Positions 13,438 to 22,883 of a stretch of 64,000 nucleotides of DNA are shown here, piece after piece. The stretch spans positions 1 through 64,000 of the forward strand of contig CAINMV010000030.1 of assembly GCA_903850915.1 (NCBI GenBank), written 5' to 3'. How positions within the stretch are numbered: position 1 is the first letter of the stretch; each line of letters opens with the position of its first letter. The translations under genes and the position numbers were made by a program. The stretch is from an uncultured Bacteroidota bacterium (GTDB taxonomy: Bacteria; Bacteroidota; Bacteroidia; UKL13-3). Under the pieces are notes generated by a model that did not search any database, was not told where the DNA came from, and worked only from the letters and a program-made list of their open reading frames with translations.

Positions 13438-13911
13438 TTATCTGCTAATTTCTAATATTTCAAGGCTTAATTTACCTGCAGGCACCTCTACCTCAAATTT
13501 ATCGCCTACTTTTTTTCCCATCAAAGCAGATCCTATTGGGGATTTCATTGAAATTTTGCCTTCTTTAAAATCAGCTTCGCTTTCAGAAACTATTTTGAAC
13601 GTTTGTTCTTTCTTCATTTTGTGATTCATAAAGCGAACACGACTCAATACCGTAACAGAGCTGAAATCTAAATCTCGTTCATCCACAACACGTGCATTGG
13701 CAATAATATTTTGCATCTTAATGATGCGAGTCTCATTGTGCGCCATAGCCTCTTTGGCTGCCTCATATTCAGCATTCTCGGAAAGATCGCCCTTATCTCG
13801 AGCCTCTGCTAATGATTGCTTTATTATCTCACGCTCTACCGACTTTAATTGCTTTAATTCTTGTTTAATTTTATCAAGGCCTTCCTGAGTAAAATATTGA
13901 AGTTCCGACAT
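13438..13911 (-). CDS. greA: Transcription elongation factor GreA
   Basis: GreA enters the secondary channel of RNA polymerase and stimulates cleavage of backtracked transcripts. The 157-residue length is normal. The N-terminal antiparallel coiled coil (about 1-75) carries the tip acidic pair in DKGDLSENAEY (Asp42 and Glu45), and the C-terminal FKBP-like domain has the typical SPIGSALMGKKVGD segment near residues 123-136. It is convergent with the EnvC-like gene 26 bases away and is preceded, on the same strand, by an intrinsic terminator that separates it from the PorV-like operon, so it has its own promoter. Confidence 0.96.
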   Translation of the reverse strand: MSELQYFTQEGLDKIKQELKQLKSVEREIIKQSLAEARDKGDLSENAEYEAAKEAMAHNETRIIKMQNIIANARVVDERDLDFSSVTVLSRVRFMNHKMKKEQTFKIVSESEADFKEGKISMKSPIGSALMGKKVGDKFEVEVPAGKLSLEILEISR

Positions 13912-13940: not shown

Positions 13941-13977
13941 AAAAAGAAACGTCCCGACCTTAACGGTTGGAACGTTT
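13941..13977 (-). terminator. Intrinsic terminator of the TonB-cargo-PorV operon
   Basis: Read on the minus strand, arms at 13965-13977 and 13947-13959 form a 13-position stem with one mismatch and one G-U pair around a five-base loop, followed by a T-run complementary to 13941-13945. It lies about 50 bases beyond the stop of the PorV-like gene. Confidence 0.75.
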
Positions 13978-14025: not shown

Positions 14026-15114
14026 TTATTCGTCATCTCCTAGGTCAACACGAATTCCAAGGCAATGTGTGGCGCCGAAGAACTGACTGTCTCGGAATGA
14101 ATAATCAAAAGAGATCATGTTATCGTTGTTTTGCTTATTCAACGGTATGTTAATGCTTGCACCAAACGCCAATCCACTGAAAGCGTTGATATGAAGTTCT
14201 TTGTCATTTATTTTATCTTCATATTGATACCCACCTCGCACTGCAAAAATCTTCTTGTAAGTGTATTCTACGCCCAATCCAAATTGGTTGTTTGCATACG
14301 CATTGGAGGTAAAATTACCTGCTATGGTTAATTTATTATGAAAAACACTGCTGTCCTTATCAAGTTTCACATCATACGATGCTCCAATATGCAGCTGAGT
14401 TGGCAATTGAAAAGGGGCTGAACGAATTTGAGCCGTGCGTTGCACACCATCGGCGTCCGTGAAATGATACGATAATCCATCACCTGCAAAAACTCCATTT
14501 ACACCCACATTGCGAAGGGAGATGCCAAGATGTAAATCTTTGCCTTTCACCTCACTAGCAGCAGATTTCTTTGATTTACCCGAATATTGAACACCGGCAT
14601 CCATACATGCTGACTTTGCTTTAACATCACTCGCACCAGTTTCTGAGATACCACGGAATACGACACCACACGAAATGAAATCGGAGAATTTATGAGCATA
14701 TGAAACTGCGATATTCGTAAAACGAGGTGAATATGTACCAATACCTCCATCTGGATTGTTTACATCCGTACGTTCTATATTTCCAAAGTTCATGGAGAAC
14801 AGAGAAATCCCAATGTAAGACTGGCTACCTATTTTTTGCGCCAAGCCCATGGAATTAAGTTTAATATCGGCAATATACTTCATGTATGAGAAGCCCACAT
14901 TGGTGCTTTTAATTTGAGTTAGACCTGCTGAATTTAGATTTAGCGATTCTATACCTTTAATATTTGACGAATTAATGCCATTCCAACCACTGCTGTTGGC
15001 CCATGGATTAATCATTAATTCTGTAGCACCTGCTGTTCCTGTTCGCGCTGGATTACCTGCCCAAGACAATGATGAAATACTTAAAGCTGTTATAAATATT
15101 AATATACGTTTCAT
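14026..15114 (-). CDS. PorV/PorQ-family outer membrane barrel (T9SS shuttle-like)
   Basis: From the ATG at 15114 the protein is 362 residues with a clear signal peptide (MKRILIFITALSISSLSWAG). The mature N-terminus carries the signature of the PorV/PorQ family, GTAGATELMINPWANSSGWN, followed by repeated amphipathic beta strands and ending in an aromatic/charged outer-membrane-like tail. PorV of Porphyromonas gingivalis is a FadL-like barrel that collects T9SS cargo by its C-terminal domain after translocation. The gene directly follows a cargo gene with a T9SS sorting domain and a TonB receptor gene, so it may serve that cargo. An upstream ATG at 15156 is possible but lacks a natural signal peptide position. 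Confidence 0.85.
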   Translation of the reverse strand: MKRILIFITALSISSLSWAGNPARTGTAGATELMINPWANSSGWNGINSSNIKGIESLNLNSAGLTQIKSTNVGFSYMKYIADIKLNSMGLAQKIGSQSYIGISLFSMNFGNIERTDVNNPDGGIGTYSPRFTNIAVSYAHKFSDFISCGVVFRGISETGASDVKAKSACMDAGVQYSGKSKKSAASEVKGKDLHLGISLRNVGVNGVFAGDGLSYHFTDADGVQRTAQIRSAPFQLPTQLHIGASYDVKLDKDSSVFHNKLTIAGNFTSNAYANNQFGLGVEYTYKKIFAVRGGYQYEDKINDKELHINAFSGLAFGASINIPLNKQNNDNMISFDYSFRDSQFFGATHCLGIRVDLGDDE

Positions 15115-15165
15115 TTGATACTCCTTATTTAGTGATGTTATTTTTACTATTTTCAATTTAATGTC

Positions 15166-18100
15166 TTAGAATGAATCCAAATCAACAGGTCGCATAACGC
15201 CCATCCATTTTAAAACCTTCACGCCCAACTCACCACAGTCAACATGAATAATATACATTCCACTTGCAATAGGCACGTTACTTCCATTATTTAAATCCCA
15301 TCGTGCTTCAACCAAATTATCATCCTTTTTAATGGTCTTCACTAAATTTCCATTCAAGGTATAAATACGAATAGTACATTTTTGTGGTAAGTTGGTGAAT
15401 TTAACATAAGTTGCAATTTGATCACTCTCATAATCATGTGATGGAGAGTATCCATAATATGGATTTGGCACAATATTAATTTTCTCTACTCCCTTTTGTC
15501 CGGCCGCTTTAGAAAATTGTGTTGCAATATCTTTGGTGTCAAATTCATAATGTGGTAATCCGTTGTTAGATGTAACAGATGTTTTGTAACGTGCGTATGG
15601 TTTAGTTACACGGTAACGAATTCTAACCTCGTTTGGTATGATACCGTCTTTAACTGATTTCAATGTCATTCTCGGGGTTAAATACGGCATCATAACATAC
15701 ATACAAGAACGGAACACTTTAACCTGATCGGCTGTGGATGGAGTACCATTTGTTCCATAAAGCAAGGTGGTTATGTTATCGCAATTGTCGTAACCTTTAC
15801 CATTTCCACTAATTTTAAATGCTTGTGTACCTGTACCAACGGAGTCATCAGTAAAGATATAGATATAGTGTTTTCCTCCGATCAATGGATATTCATCCGT
15901 GTTAGAAAATAAATTTGAAGTTGGATTCCATAACATATCGGTGCCATTTTCTCCACTTAAGTGAGAATCCTCACCAAAGGCAATATTGAGACGTTGTCCG
16001 GTTTCTATGTTAATAGCATAACCAGGAAACCAACCTTTTCCAGTTCCACTTCCATCAGGCAAACCATCTTTACCAACTGAAGCAGATCTACGTAGGCTAA
16101 GTTTAGGCGCTCCACCAATGGCATCGGTTGCAATTTCGGCTTCCTCCAATACCGCTGAACGCGTCCATTTTGATTTATCAGGCGTGAAAACGATATCGAT
16201 ACTCGATAGATTTTCCATACGATTATTACTTGTTGCTGTTGTGCTGTTTAATGCCGGCCCAAAAGTATTCCCTTTTGTTGCCGAATAATTAGAGTATGCG
16301 CACAAACGATAAGGAGCAAATGTTCTATCTAAGGCCTTCTCATATACCTCCTGTGGGTCAACCATGTCGCTCAAACCATTGTCATAAAAATCATGAAGAT
16401 ACGGATCAAATTTAGTTGGATCAGACTTAATCGTGTTTTCTCCGTTTTTACCCGACCGAATCCAATTGTAGATATAGGCTACGGACCCTGCTTGATCAAA
16501 ATCTGAAAAGCCAGATAGCCATTGTTGGTTTATATCACTCCAGTCGTATTCAGCTTCGATAAAACCATTTTTCAATACTTCGTCGAAATTAAACTTCCAG
16601 CTTCCTGGGTTACTTGCTTGTTTGATACTCACACTTAATCCCCATTTGGCTATTATTTGCTCGGCGCCAATAGAAATGTCTCCATCACTATTTACGGTGT
16701 CTCCATTCGACTTGCGAACAATTCTCCAGCGTGCTGCAGGCCACACCGAATCCCCTTTTACTTTGGACATTTGACTAAATCCATTGGCAAGGATATAAAT
16801 TTCAAATTTATCATTGGGTACTTTAAGTGGGTCGATCACTTTTATATGAATTGGTGATGCACCACCTTTATACACTGGGAATTCAGCATTTCCATTAGCT
16901 AAAATCTCACTTACTGTTTCAGGCGTAAATTCTAATGAATTTCCACCATTTCCTCTTCCTTCCAAACGCTTCATAATTGGTCCTGATCCATATTTCGCAA
17001 TCGAATCGTTGTTTACACCATTATTAGTGCTCCATACCTTGTGAGGAGAGGCTGTAAAAACCTTTGTATTTAAACGACCCGCCAAATATTGCTCAGGGTC
17101 GTTTTGGTCATTCGATGCATTCGCATAAGAAATAATCATAAAGGTATATGTCTTGTAGTTTACCAACGCCGTATTTTTTGTGGCAAAGGCATCCGATTTA
17201 ATTTGGAATGAGTGACGTATACCGGTATTCTCACCAAAAACCTTCAGAACTTTTAAAAAGTCAGAAACCGTTGGGTCGAATACTTTATTTACCAATACAT
17301 CTACATTATCTTTTATGTCACATTGGTAAATTAATCGAGCACGGTCTGCATTGGCTAATTCTCCTGAGGTTACTGAAGCATCTTTCAATTGATAAATTTG
17401 GTATCCTTGAAATTTGTAGTTAATGGTGTTGCCGGCAGATCCGATTACATTGGCAGAATATTTCTCAATTTTTTGTGTAGCGAATTTTGAATTTTGATCT
17501 GACGATAAATTAATAATCAATTCCTTATCAAGCTCTTGCACTGTAAAATCAGGTGAGGATGGGCCATCCGTGATTTTAAAGTTATTATTAAATAGTTTTT
17601 GTGCTTTATCATCCGCTTGTCTTAACAACTCGATTGAACCTGTTGCACCTCCAGTGGAGGCTTTTGCCCAAACAACACCAACTGTTACTTCGTTTCTAGC
17701 ACCTGGCATTAATTTAAATGGTCCTGCACTTTGCAAAAAGCGTCTGTCGCCTGCTTGATTTCCTGCAAGTTTCTCGGTCCAATTGTAGCGGCCAGCCGGG
17801 TCAGTAGTACCTGGAAACATATAACTACATGTGTCGGTTCCTGTTCTACCATTGCCACCGTATGTCATTTGGACATTGTTTTTCCAAATACCTTTTAGAT
17901 AGTTGTAAAAATGCTGAGCAGTTTGAGGATTTCCATACAATGACCAATCGTTGTCATAGTAAACAAATTTACCCATTCCTAAAGGATTGCCATTTTCATC
18001 GCGAGGTCCTTTAAAGAAATCGACGCCTACCGTTGGTGGATTTAATCCATATCCGAGGATGCCATCATCGTCATCGTCTCCATTATAGCAAATGCCCAAG

Positions 18101-19050
18101 CTTCTTGGAACATCACATCCTACATAGTCATCAGCATAGTTACCCAAATCTGGATCCACCCACTCTCCGAAATAACATTTGTCGAGGTAGTCGCTACCAC
18201 GATTGATAATCTCTGTGGTATAGAAGGTCATATTGTTAATTTCGTCATTTGTTTTAAATGCAAATGCAGTGGTATGCAACTCTAATCCGATAGGTAATGC
18301 ATCTGTTTCGGTGTGCACATTTCCTTTGTCATTATAAACCCACCATAATGCTTCATCCGGAGCCGATTCAATGGTGTCTTTGGTATTTGGATCATCGCCT
18401 GGAAGTAAAGGGTAGTCCACACCCGGCTCATAATCCAATGATCCTCCAACGTTAACATAAGGTGCCATGAAATGTGAAGTAGTTCCTGCACCAAAATTTG
18501 GATGATTTCCTGGCCATGTTTCCATGTCGGCGGTAATTTTACTAGGGTCAAATTTAGAATTAATGAAATCTTCCAATTCTACACGAGTAATCTTCCAAAT
18601 TTTATCGTAAAGCGTACATTGATTGGCTGTTACGGAGGCAAAAGTATCTATAGGTCCTGAGAAGAAATCCACTCCACTTTGACGATACGTGTTGGCAGCA
18701 ATTTTTAAGTTATTACTACCATCGATACCACCAATCCAAAGCGATCCTGAAAAAATGGAATTCAAACGACGCTGATTCGGGTCGGTTACCTTTGGAATCT
18801 CATATTTGGCACTATTTAAGTCCCACCACATGTCGCCACCATTTAATATCATGGTGCGCACGTTATTAATATCCATATAAACCTTTGCGGTAGGTTGCGC
18901 ACAACCACCAGAGGTTTTATTATAGCCTGTTGCGCTATTTCCGTTATTACTCGGAGCAGGTTTTATACCAATAATCTCTCTGGCTTGCAGCAAGGTAGAA
19001 ACGCATAGAACGGCGCTTAATACTGCAATTTTTATGTATTTGATTTTCAT
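15166..19050 (-). CDS. Giant secreted protein with T9SS C-terminal sorting domain
   Basis: This 1294-residue protein starts with a signal peptide (KIAVLSAVLCVSTLLQA) and ends in a type IX secretion sorting domain: from about residue 1190, NIVPNPYYGYSP, a beta-rich segment with RIYTLNGNLVKTI, then IASGMYIIHVDCGELG and a conserved tail GVMRPVDLDSF. Near residue 68 it has NNVRTMILNGGDMWWDL and further on SGSLWIGGIDGSNNLKIAA, segments I associate with a recurring but functionally undescribed Bacteroidota family. I see no hydrolase, lectin or adhesin motif. The middle is Asp/Asn/Gly-rich, as in calcium-stabilised secreted beta proteins. It lies between a TonB receptor gene (45 bases upstream) and a PorV-like gene, forming one operon. 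Confidence 0.85.
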   Translation of the reverse strand: MKIKYIKIAVLSAVLCVSTLLQAREIIGIKPAPSNNGNSATGYNKTSGGCAQPTAKVYMDINNVRTMILNGGDMWWDLNSAKYEIPKVTDPNQRRLNSIFSGSLWIGGIDGSNNLKIAANTYRQSGVDFFSGPIDTFASVTANQCTLYDKIWKITRVELEDFINSKFDPSKITADMETWPGNHPNFGAGTTSHFMAPYVNVGGSLDYEPGVDYPLLPGDDPNTKDTIESAPDEALWWVYNDKGNVHTETDALPIGLELHTTAFAFKTNDEINNMTFYTTEIINRGSDYLDKCYFGEWVDPDLGNYADDYVGCDVPRSLGICYNGDDDDDGILGYGLNPPTVGVDFFKGPRDENGNPLGMGKFVYYDNDWSLYGNPQTAQHFYNYLKGIWKNNVQMTYGGNGRTGTDTCSYMFPGTTDPAGRYNWTEKLAGNQAGDRRFLQSAGPFKLMPGARNEVTVGVVWAKASTGGATGSIELLRQADDKAQKLFNNNFKITDGPSSPDFTVQELDKELIINLSSDQNSKFATQKIEKYSANVIGSAGNTINYKFQGYQIYQLKDASVTSGELANADRARLIYQCDIKDNVDVLVNKVFDPTVSDFLKVLKVFGENTGIRHSFQIKSDAFATKNTALVNYKTYTFMIISYANASNDQNDPEQYLAGRLNTKVFTASPHKVWSTNNGVNNDSIAKYGSGPIMKRLEGRGNGGNSLEFTPETVSEILANGNAEFPVYKGGASPIHIKVIDPLKVPNDKFEIYILANGFSQMSKVKGDSVWPAARWRIVRKSNGDTVNSDGDISIGAEQIIAKWGLSVSIKQASNPGSWKFNFDEVLKNGFIEAEYDWSDINQQWLSGFSDFDQAGSVAYIYNWIRSGKNGENTIKSDPTKFDPYLHDFYDNGLSDMVDPQEVYEKALDRTFAPYRLCAYSNYSATKGNTFGPALNSTTATSNNRMENLSSIDIVFTPDKSKWTRSAVLEEAEIATDAIGGAPKLSLRRSASVGKDGLPDGSGTGKGWFPGYAINIETGQRLNIAFGEDSHLSGENGTDMLWNPTSNLFSNTDEYPLIGGKHYIYIFTDDSVGTGTQAFKISGNGKGYDNCDNITTLLYGTNGTPSTADQVKVFRSCMYVMMPYLTPRMTLKSVKDGIIPNEVRIRYRVTKPYARYKTSVTSNNGLPHYEFDTKDIATQFSKAAGQKGVEKINIVPNPYYGYSPSHDYESDQIATYVKFTNLPQKCTIRIYTLNGNLVKTIKKDDNLVEARWDLNNGSNVPIASGMYIIHVDCGELGVKVLKWMGVMRPVDLDSF

Positions 19051-19094
19051 GATGACGCTTTGATAATTGATTGATCTACTGTTTTTACTTAAGA

Positions 19095-22000
19095 TTATAG
19101 GTCTTTTCTGCTGTTAAAAATAATACGAACACCTAGACGAGCTTGGCGAGGTAAAGCATAAAGACCAGGATTGTTTGTTCTGATTTGATATTGATCCACG
19201 AAGGCTTGCTTGCTAATTTGACTTTGCGTGCTACGTATTCCATCGGCTGATGTTAAATAACCATCATCGGTGGCCAATCCAGTGTTAGAGTATACACCCA
19301 AAACATTAAGTGTGTTTAATATATTATTGCAAACAATATAAATGTTCAATGGAGTCTTTTTAGCTTCCCCTTTGTGATTGTATTTTAAGGTTATGGTTTT
19401 GTCAATTGTAACATCGCAATACACTTGACCAGGCAGACGTTGTCCGTTTATAGACCCTTGTATTGGGTTACGAGATACTGAACCTCCAATTACCTGCGAT
19501 ACGTTTTTGTTGGCTGTTGCTGTATATGGTGCACCAGAGAATCCTTGCAGTTGCACGTTCATGCCAAAGTCTTCCAATACATTTCTGTCTTTCCCTTTAA
19601 ATTTCATTACCGGGCCATCATAAGGATGGTCAGCATCAGTTTTAAATCTGTAGTCAACTCCTATTTTAAAGGTATGACGGAAATCCACATCCAATGGCTG
19701 TAAAGTTTTCAAGCTTGGCTTGTTTACTGCTATTAATCCAGCGCTAGTTGAAGCAGAAGAACCTGTACCATCAGCAAAAAGTAGGCTATAATTGGCAACA
19801 ATATCCATGTGCTTGAAGGAATAAAGGAAATATTCAATACGGAAGGCTTTTGAAGTTGAGAAATCCTCGTTTCCAAAGGCAGTATAACTGGTAGGGAAAG
19901 CTTGATAAAAGCGTTTTAATTGAATTAGGTCACGGGTTTCGGCATAAGATGCGATAAAGCTAATTGCAGATGCTTCGGTTAGTTTTTGTTTGTACCCTAC
20001 CTCGTAGCTTGTCTTTTTTGAAGGTTTTAAGTTAGGATTAGCCAAAGTGCCATCGAGAGCTCTACGTTCAAAAAATTGGTAGTCGTCGTTGGTAGCAAAA
20101 AAGCCTTCGGCCGGTCTTTGACTTAACACGTCATAATTAGCAAAGAACTCAGCATCATCACTAATTGGGAAAGAGAACCAAACGCGAGGCATAAAAATAG
20201 GAGTAGGAGAATAATCCTGAAATGCCGCTGCATCAAGTTTGTACTTACTTAAATCGAGCGCTGGATTAATTAACCAAGGCTGTATCCGCCCTCCTGCTTG
20301 AGATAATACTGATGGATCTGTTAATATGTTACCTGCTTTGTTATACCAAGTATTTCCGTTACGAAATCCCAAAAGGTTTGGTGAAGCACTTTTATAGTTG
20401 TCTACATACACTGCATAATCACCTGAAACAGTAGACGGGATTTCCTCTTGCTTGGCCCACTCTGCCGCGGTGTGCGCTGGGAACAACAAATACGGGTCCT
20501 TTAATACTTTTATGTTAGCATCAAACTGCTCTGCACGAAGCCCTAAACGGAACTTAATTTCTTTATAGCTAAATTGATCCTGGATCCAGGCTGCTGCATT
20601 AATTGGGGCAAAAGCACCTATTGGACGATTATTATTATCATTCCAATCTTTAATTGATGGGCGACCTTTAATAGTATTACCAAGGTAATCATAGCCATAA
20701 ACATCAATCAACTGATTTCCATTATTATATAAGTCATCTGGAGAAAACCACGACAATTTCATGTCTTCCGGTTTCATTGCATTAACATCAATCCATGAAT
20801 TTTGAGTAACTGGGTTACCGTAAATATCCTTTGCGCCAGAGTTAATTTGAGCTTGACGAAGGTTTTTCGCAAATTCTGTTTCATCATTAGAATTAAAAAG
20901 ACGCTTGTAATATACCGTGTCTTGAAATACACCATTCGCATCGTAAGCAAGAATTGGATGCGCACGATCTAGCTCAAGTACTGCTTGGTTAGCCAAGGCT
21001 GTAGCACGACTCCAAAGACTTGCAGCACCTACACTGTATCCGCGTTGTGCACGTTGTTCAAACGACAAACCAAACTGTAAGTCATGCTTTTTTGAACGAT
21101 CTTTTATATCTGGAGTAATAGAAGCTTCACCAATTGCATATAATGTTAACTGGTCGGAGCGACTCTTGCTATAACCTGTAGGGTAAGCTCCCACATTGCT
21201 CCACATACTATAAACAGAACCTGGTGCATCGCCATTCATAAGTCCTCCCAACGCTTGAACGGCATTGGCATTTCTTACTAAACGTCCATACTCGTTGAAT
21301 ACTTGTTGGGTATAATTTGAAGAAATAGGATTCAGGTCGCTAGGCACGAAACGCAATGCTGTATCCATATAGCCATTTTGCTCGATATAATTTCTTAATT
21401 CTACCGTTTTGCCATTTTGATCAACAAACGTAGTACGCGGTCCATTTAATCCATTGTCAACATAACGGAAGTTTGGTGCTTTATATGAATTAAATTGTCC
21501 TACGTAGCCATATTCCCATGTGTTAAAATCATGGCGTGGATCATAATTTGTTCCTGAAACCACGGTGTAATCTAAGCGCACGGTATATAAAGCGTCGGTT
21601 ACAATAGATTTGTCCTTCTCCTTATCATCCTTTTTATCGCCACCCGATTTCAATTTATGTGTTAAGCTTGCACTAATACGATTAGTTGAGCTAGTGCTTT
21701 CTGAGGCGTTTCTATAATTAAAAAGAGAGCTCGTGAAACTATAATTGGATCCACGGCTATAGCCACCATTTAAACCCACTTGAATATTAATATTTTTTGT
21801 AGGTTGAAACGTTAAGGTACTAATATAAGATAAGCTAGTACTGGCCGCGTTTAATTTATAACTGATTTTTTCGAGGTCCTTTTTGTTAATATAACTAGCA
21901 CTTGGCACTAATCCGTCGCCTGTTGGACTTGGTGAGTTAGGCTTCAATTCCAACTCAGCCAATTTTGCGTCACTGAGCTTATATAATTGAATGGCAGAAG

Positions 22001-22883
22001 GGTTGCCATCGCGAGCATGCATGGCCGAGAAACCCAAGGTGTAACCTAAAATTACGCGTTCTTTACCTGGATCTTGCTTGTTGATAACCTTCAGTGGCCC
22101 TGAAAAGTAACCTTGTAGTTGCTGATAGTTGTAACGATCGAACATCATCGAATTCGAGTAATCGAATAGATTTACATAGGCAAGGGTTGGGGACTTAAAC
22201 GATAAGTTGATGGCACCACCTGTAAAGTCACCATATTGTGCAGGAACACCACCTGTAATAACTGACACATCATTTAAAGCATCTGGGATCAATGGGATAG
22301 AACCAATTACCTTAACGCCGTTGATAAAATATCCTGTTTGATTGGCACGAGAACCTAAGAAAGATGGCGTTCCTCCATTTTTAGTATAAACACCAGCAGT
22401 AGTACCTACCAATTTATTTAAACTTGTAGCTCCTTGTTTTTGAGCCGAGGTGCTACTGATATGGGTTCCTATCTCACCTTGCTTTAAGGGTGGATTTTTT
22501 ATATGCTGAATAATAACTTCTCTTGTTGTACCTCCAAGAAGTTTTTTCGGAAGTAAGGTCGACTTCATGTCTGTAACCTGGTCGTCGTTTACCTTTATTC
22601 CATCTTGGGTTAATTCTACATAATCATCATCACCAATAAAGGTTAAAGAATATACACCAGAAGGAAGCGACTTAATATCGTAGAACCCTTTGTCGTCGGT
22701 ATACACGTCGCCTTTATAAACGCCATTAAGCTTTGCCACAACCTGCACGCTAAATAAGGGAATATTCGTTTTTGCATCCTTCACAAAACCCCGAATGGAG
22801 CCGTCGGCAAAGGAGGAAAAAGCGGAAAATAGAAAGGCAATGATGATGAGTGCCTTTTTGTTAGAGAAGTAAACCTTATTCAT
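19095..22883 (-). CDS. TonB-dependent receptor with carboxypeptidase-regulatory-like N-terminal domain
   Basis: From the ATG at 22883 the protein has 1262 residues: a signal peptide (about 1-28, ending SAFSSFADG), a carboxypeptidase-regulatory-like beta-sandwich (about 30-115, GSIRGFVKDAKTNIPLFSVQ), a TonB plug (about 125-225, including SVITGGVPAQYGDFTGGAIN), and a 22-strand-type barrel ending in GVRIIFNSRKDL. It is larger than most siderophore receptors because of long extracellular loops, so a large ligand or protein partner is possible. No SusD-like lipoprotein is next to it, so it is not a standard polysaccharide utilisation locus. It is the first gene of the operon with the T9SS cargo and PorV-like barrel. 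Confidence 0.9.
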   Translation of the reverse strand: MNKVYFSNKKALIIIAFLFSAFSSFADGSIRGFVKDAKTNIPLFSVQVVAKLNGVYKGDVYTDDKGFYDIKSLPSGVYSLTFIGDDDYVELTQDGIKVNDDQVTDMKSTLLPKKLLGGTTREVIIQHIKNPPLKQGEIGTHISSTSAQKQGATSLNKLVGTTAGVYTKNGGTPSFLGSRANQTGYFINGVKVIGSIPLIPDALNDVSVITGGVPAQYGDFTGGAINLSFKSPTLAYVNLFDYSNSMMFDRYNYQQLQGYFSGPLKVINKQDPGKERVILGYTLGFSAMHARDGNPSAIQLYKLSDAKLAELELKPNSPSPTGDGLVPSASYINKKDLEKISYKLNAASTSLSYISTLTFQPTKNINIQVGLNGGYSRGSNYSFTSSLFNYRNASESTSSTNRISASLTHKLKSGGDKKDDKEKDKSIVTDALYTVRLDYTVVSGTNYDPRHDFNTWEYGYVGQFNSYKAPNFRYVDNGLNGPRTTFVDQNGKTVELRNYIEQNGYMDTALRFVPSDLNPISSNYTQQVFNEYGRLVRNANAVQALGGLMNGDAPGSVYSMWSNVGAYPTGYSKSRSDQLTLYAIGEASITPDIKDRSKKHDLQFGLSFEQRAQRGYSVGAASLWSRATALANQAVLELDRAHPILAYDANGVFQDTVYYKRLFNSNDETEFAKNLRQAQINSGAKDIYGNPVTQNSWIDVNAMKPEDMKLSWFSPDDLYNNGNQLIDVYGYDYLGNTIKGRPSIKDWNDNNNRPIGAFAPINAAAWIQDQFSYKEIKFRLGLRAEQFDANIKVLKDPYLLFPAHTAAEWAKQEEIPSTVSGDYAVYVDNYKSASPNLLGFRNGNTWYNKAGNILTDPSVLSQAGGRIQPWLINPALDLSKYKLDAAAFQDYSPTPIFMPRVWFSFPISDDAEFFANYDVLSQRPAEGFFATNDDYQFFERRALDGTLANPNLKPSKKTSYEVGYKQKLTEASAISFIASYAETRDLIQLKRFYQAFPTSYTAFGNEDFSTSKAFRIEYFLYSFKHMDIVANYSLLFADGTGSSASTSAGLIAVNKPSLKTLQPLDVDFRHTFKIGVDYRFKTDADHPYDGPVMKFKGKDRNVLEDFGMNVQLQGFSGAPYTATANKNVSQVIGGSVSRNPIQGSINGQRLPGQVYCDVTIDKTITLKYNHKGEAKKTPLNIYIVCNNILNTLNVLGVYSNTGLATDDGYLTSADGIRSTQSQISKQAFVDQYQIRTNNPGLYALPRQARLGVRIIFNSRKDL

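Follow-up and report, generated by a model that had tools for sequence, protein, structure and literature searches.

SprA is the translocon of the T9SS, and in Porphyromonas gingivalis the outer-membrane protein PorV shuttles T9SS cargo by its sorting domain. PorQ-PorZ is the other known PorV-family pair, and PorQ is thought to be the anchor for PorZ, as PorV is for PorU. In both PorQ-PorZ and PorV-PorU of P. gingivalis, a T9SS-exported partner is reported to be bound to the barrel with its sorting domain uncleaved (PMC10202324), and PorU and PorZ have also been reported elsewhere to retain their sorting domains (PMC11285876). A PorV-like barrel that handles its cognate partner has been suggested to protect these domains from cleavage (PMC10202324), and a search for a sequence feature separating cleaved from uncleaved domains found none (PMC11285876). 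It has been stated that PorV serves as the single shuttle for all type A sorting domains (PMC12618676). For type B substrates, it is experimentally established that the barrel gene lies directly downstream and that recognition is cognate (PMC12618676). Here we describe a widespread locus of the Bacteroidota, which is best read as adding to PorV-PorU and PorQ-PorZ a third pair of a PorV-family barrel and its cognate substrate.

The window that was analyzed is a stretch of 64,000 nucleotides from an uncultured Bacteroidota bacterium. On its minus strand, three genes follow one another: the gene for a predicted TonB-dependent receptor (22883-19095, with an ATG start, 1262 aa), that for a giant cargo protein predicted to be secreted (19050-15166, 1294 aa) and the gene for a PorV/PorQ-family outer-membrane barrel (15114-14026, 362 aa counted from the ATG). 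The open reading frames reproduce, to the base, the common strand, the sizes and the gaps of 44 nt (receptor/cargo) and 51 nt (cargo/barrel) given in the initial annotation. The unit ends in an intrinsic terminator on the minus strand (13947..13977), a hairpin with 13-nt arms (13947-13959 and 13965-13977) followed by T5. It folds at −16.9 kcal/mol with a z of −4.0 versus shuffles, and it had first been recorded as a strong terminator. A simple consensus scan made no terminator call at this hairpin, and a promoter scan gave a number of sites not above that in shuffles. Behind the terminator lies greA (13438..13911, minus strand, identified by Pfam), which is probably functionally outside the module, and the other flank is a 2-hydroxyacid dehydrogenase gene. 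No SusD gene adjoins the receptor, whose neighbors are the cargo and the 2-hydroxyacid dehydrogenase, so the view that the unit is not a standard PUL holds. Between 15114 and 15166, the cargo and barrel genes share a frame in which the cargo's own TAA is the only stop between them, which leaves a read-through fusion open; the two genes are in frame in 24 of 72 other loci, which is the chance expectation.

The barrel matches the PorV/PorQ family model NF033709 (120.9 bits; cut-off 90), as do all of its 29 orthologues that were compared. It falls below the equivalog cut-offs of PorV (NF033710, 71.1 versus 250 bits), PorQ (NF033711, 66.7 versus 220) and PorV2 (NF052325, 23.4 versus 325). A tree of 68 family members groups the trio barrels in a single clade (support 100/100) that excludes PorV, PorQ and PorV2; the deeper branches, and with them any choice of a sister clade, are weakly supported. 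The protein is thus a separate lineage and not a housekeeping paralogue, in keeping with its original reading as a paralogue of PorV. The same genome holds four PorV-family genes, i.e. a genuine porV beside porU, a porQ, the gene of the trio barrel and one that adjoins a gene for an NHL-repeat protein, and it also has PorZ. By profile comparison the barrel matches PorV (6h3i, 9e-18), and PorV is also the solved structure nearest to it in the second AlphaFold2 model (6h3i_F, Z 31.6, 292 residues, 3.4 Å). The model is more distant from FadL (Z 24-28) and BamG (Z 23-25), and it is classed as a FadL-like 14-stranded barrel.

As assessed by profiles and modeling, the C terminus of the cargo is an Ig-like T9SS sorting domain that resembles those of PorU and PorZ in type (residues about 1190-1294; 15169..15483, minus strand), for which the second model predicts seven strands with high confidence. 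The cargo C terminus is sub-threshold for TIGR04183, the type A model (20.6 bits; cut-off 23). Among 29 cargo orthologues, the PorZ model NF052228 matches 21, the PorU model matches six and TIGR04183 weakly matches 22 (best E-value 1.2e-4), while the type B domain TIGR04131 matches none. Four orthologues were viewed singly, and the three with a PorZ match align to positions 653-740 of the 757 of the PorZ model, which are the PorZ sorting domain. Profile comparison relates the cargo domain to type A, PorU and PorZ domains with 96-98.5% probability, making them one superfamily, and its profile identity falls from 32% with PorU and 24% with PorZ to 15% with ordinary type A domains. The sorting domain that was first noticed is real, and the PorZ/PorU type is nearer to it than the ordinary type A domain. 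From this resemblance, we infer that it may be retained uncleaved, like those of PorU and PorZ. Its last residues form a conserved tail (residues 1281-1294, KWMGVMRPVDLDSF; 15169..15210, minus strand), defined by alignment of the 29 orthologues, with the consensus KWFGVMRPxDLDSF. The tail extends about 8 residues beyond the end of the PorZ/PorU domain; PorZ, PorU and the short paralogues lack it, and other classes have variant tails.

The locus shares with PorQ-PorZ and PorV-PorU a PorV-family barrel and a partner, here a predicted T9SS substrate, with a sorting domain of the same sub-type. It differs from them by the separate clade of its barrel, an unrelated cargo body and a TonB receptor in the operon, and it occurs in a genome that has a PorU-PorV pair, PorZ and PorQ besides. 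With the type B/PorP-SprF systems of Flavobacterium johnsoniae (PMC12618676), it has in common a barrel gene directly downstream of the cargo and the pairing of one cargo with one barrel. In contrast to these systems, its barrel is of the PorV/PorQ family, its sorting domain is not type B and a large TonB receptor lies upstream.

The body of the cargo follows a signal peptide recognized by eye (residues 1-23). Apart from the sub-threshold sorting domain, Pfam and NCBIfam have no match in the cargo and hence no catalytic domain, which agrees with the initial annotation, and a sequence search of solved structures returned no relative up to an E-value of 1. AlphaFold2 modeled residues 24-1208 with a mean pLDDT of 85.5. 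Within this model, a fold search identifies a super-β-sandwich (galactose-mutarotase-like) domain at residues about 50-494 (17569..18903, minus strand), which corresponds to no Pfam family. It matches the N-terminal domains of GH94, GH65 and GH116 enzymes with Z 14-19 over 234-276 residues, i.e. a shared sandwich of about 250 residues at ∼10% identity. The cargo family had been noted as large, functionally undescribed and, from its GGDMWWDL block, conserved-looking. A scan of named species genomes gave at least 579 cargo relatives, and the description can be refined, since the block is situated at the start of the sandwich fold. Residues 299-313 contain an invariant acidic cluster (D299, D301, D307, D308 and D313) that could bind metal. 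In enzymes of the GH94/GH65/GH116 type, the catalytic residues are carried by an (α/α)6 barrel. This barrel is missing from the cargo model, in which helices are short and scattered, one having 18 residues, and this difference makes a binding or structural role of the cargo more likely than a catalytic one. Residues 640-1180 are folded with good confidence, and fold-search matches hardly cover them. Several variants of the family were seen. Paralogues that have only the N-terminal sandwich in common with the cargo (500-900 aa) are scattered (L076, L077, L078, L079 and L080), two enlarged orthologues of 1695 aa (L063:7570-12657) and 1618 aa (L064:7732-12588) have insertions in the C-terminal half, and one family member matches a BNR/Ycf48-type propeller.

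To determine how far the trio extends, we used the synteny search that had been set beforehand as the test of the module. Among the named genome contigs with the best 80 of the at least 579 relatives, 70 have the order receptor-cargo-barrel, usually with greA next, and the remainder are mostly cut contigs or extra cargo copies. Most of the families sampled in the class have the trio, and cargo relatives occur in 89 of the 97 genomes of relatives. The gaps, measured in 97 loci, have medians of 23 and 24 nt. Within its own family, most genomes have one full-length cargo copy (46-54% identity). Of the loci in other classes of the phylum, 14 were retrieved, and each has all three genes with order and orientation unchanged, although for three loci this emerged only from six-frame reading; since these loci were picked for having a cargo match, they show the age of the association and not its frequency. 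In the G+C-rich loci L059, L214, L215 and L219, the ORF caller had missed genes, and six-frame reading gave complete trios. The cargos of other classes are shorter (about 1000-1200 aa) and 28-40% identical, and greA, which adjoins the barrel in most class-level loci, does not do so there. A phylum-wide draw found a cargo match in 30 of 118 genomes, and the module is widespread yet patchy, with several families lacking it. As gene order is kept far beyond the genus, the trio is more than chance. The module that was initially regarded as possibly local is thus real, but not local in scale, as it extends over the phylum with nearly one copy per genome. At six loci (L093, L109, L112, L117, L142 and L155), an orphan full-length cargo has the conserved tail and no adjoining receptor or barrel, and some of these genomes also hold the trio.

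The cargo and barrel also come and go together. In 39 families of the class, represented by one genome each, 31 genomes have both, seven have neither, one has the barrel only and none has the cargo only (Fisher 5e-7, with relatedness not corrected). The barrel-only genome is 69% complete, and one of the seven genomes with neither (G064) contains a protein that has only the cargo N-terminal domain in common. SprA is missing from three genomes, all of which lack the module, and the cargo occurs only in genomes that bear SprA; the module is absent from several T9SS-bearing families. Across 81 loci, distances correlate at 0.87 for receptor and cargo and at 0.77 for cargo and barrel, and the partial values with greA taken out are 0.77 and 0.59, respectively. 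These are Mantel correlations that represent the shared inheritance expected of co-inherited genes and are no demonstration of binding. The module and the cargo-barrel pairing are well supported, and the conserved order and separate barrel clade support the earlier suggestion of a dedicated surface module in which a PorV paralogue is paired with one cargo.

The receptor (19095..22883, minus strand) has a CarboxypepD_reg N-terminal extension followed by a Ton-box-like segment (by eye), a plug and a putative large barrel, and its orthologues hold the same slot in the trio. The Pfam matches, CarboxypepD_reg (35.1 bits) and Plug (24.0 bits), are both just above their cut-offs. The receptor profile matches the plug of the colicin I receptor (2hdf, 4e-12), and Pfam has no match for the outer-membrane barrel. 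A TonB receptor with a CarboxypepD_reg extension and a large surface partner is also the arrangement of SusC-SusD. Unlike SusC-SusD, the unit has no SusD or surface lipoprotein, the partner has a barrel of its own and is a predicted substrate of the T9SS, and the trio is near single-copy and phylum-wide.

We propose that the products of the three genes assemble into a single surface complex of the outer membrane. Sec would take the cargo across the inner membrane and SprA across the outer one, and at SprA its own PorV-family barrel would receive it and bind the PorU/PorZ-type domain and the tail, with no cleavage. The barrel would thus be both a shuttle and a permanent, non-covalent anchor. 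The cargo sandwich, resembling sugar enzymes but non-catalytic, would face outwards and, with the other cargo domains, capture a large ligand (a glycan is our first guess) or cap the TonB receptor. The receptor would import the ligand, making the cargo a T9SS-delivered counterpart of the SusD lid. The parts of this scheme differ in strength. Binding of the cargo by the barrel is probable, and the presence of the receptor in the same complex is slightly favored. Capture and import of a ligand are a tentative suggestion. The scheme as a whole, a cognate barrel/cargo pair on the surface with a receptor and ligand uptake, has in our estimation an even chance of being right. A fused cargo-barrel model gave a pTM of 0.71, a value from which docking is not readable; some structural alignments pair the N terminus of FadL or BamG with a strand from the cargo C-terminal domain, which hints that in the fused model this domain is near the barrel. 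The role of the receptor is the weakest link, as import is a first guess by analogy with SusCD, and a structural or signaling role is a serious rival. The near single-copy, phylum-wide conservation counts against the proposal, being unusual for a substrate-specific uptake system, and so do the orphan full-length cargo copies without an adjoining barrel and the published failure to find a sequence feature that marks uncleaved domains (PMC11285876).

That conservation, with the same order in distant classes, would agree with a module for envelope biogenesis or structure. In this reading, the trio builds or maintains a surface structure, e.g. a coat like an S-layer or a complex that handles LPS in the way of PorZ, and the receptor has a structural or signaling role in place of import. 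The unit has neither enzymes nor sugar genes and, within the class, keeps greA as a steady housekeeping neighbor. Moreover, FadL-type barrels are structural BAM subunits in the same phylum, such as BamG (PMC12578637). In BamG-BamH of the Bacteroidota BAM, a FadL-fold barrel binds a surface protein by its outer loops (PMC12578637), an arrangement that the trio would resemble if its barrel holds the cargo. However, the trio barrel is closer to PorV than to BamG (Z 31.6 versus 23-25), and BamH is a lipoprotein whereas the cargo is a predicted T9SS substrate. The module is also dispensable, as the T9SS-bearing families without it show, and the receptor retains a recognizable plug and Ton-box-like segment; we regard an envelope module as unlikely.

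A further explanation, which we consider slightly less likely still, is that the cargo is handled like other type A substrates, i.e. collected by PorV, cleaved by PorU and attached to LPS, and that the barrel has another task, e.g. FadL-like transport of lipids or hydrophobic ligands. The place of the sorting domain within the type A superfamily, the FadL-like fold of the barrel and the orphan cargo copies would all agree with this. However, the window cargo is under the TIGR04183 cut-off, whereas the N-domain paralogues that were checked have an ordinary type A domain (40-52 bits, with no PorZ match) and no adjoining barrel, and cargo and barrel are gained and lost jointly. Mere co-transcription of three unrelated outer-membrane genes would be enough for gene order in closely related genomes, but is very improbable given an order that stays the same in distant classes though the flanking genes change, and the joint presence and absence of cargo and barrel.

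We found no description of the trio in open PMC papers. There are precedents for pairs of a T9SS barrel and a cognate substrate; as far as we found, this barrel clade, its cargo and the phylum-wide link to a TonB receptor are undescribed. If the proposed complex exists, PorV-type barrels have diversified into dedicated anchors, T9SS export is linked to TonB-dependent processes, and a function would be assigned to hundreds of proteins that Pfam families leave mostly uncovered. The trio is also a test case for what keeps some sorting domains uncleaved. More speculatively, and with some doubt on our part, it might represent a third, phylum-wide kind of T9SS-assembled complex, in which a cognate PorV-family barrel holds a sandwich protein that is not an enzyme at a TonB receptor, as a SusD-independent, energized machine for uptake or sensing. 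Such a machine would have originated early in the phylum, and some families, perhaps with those of the model species among them, would later have lost it.

Two other PorV-family loci were noted. An unnamed PorV-family clade (331-356 aa) is directly followed by an NHL-repeat protein of ∼410 aa, called as 467 aa in the genome of the window, where the pair lies on contig C11 (L009:5285-7514). This second conserved pair, also seen at L191, L192 and L193, looks like a further cognate pair. At L202:5776-11956, PorV2 is directly followed by a 1698-aa PorU-related protein, which brings to four the PorV-family barrels that adjoin a partner with a sorting domain.
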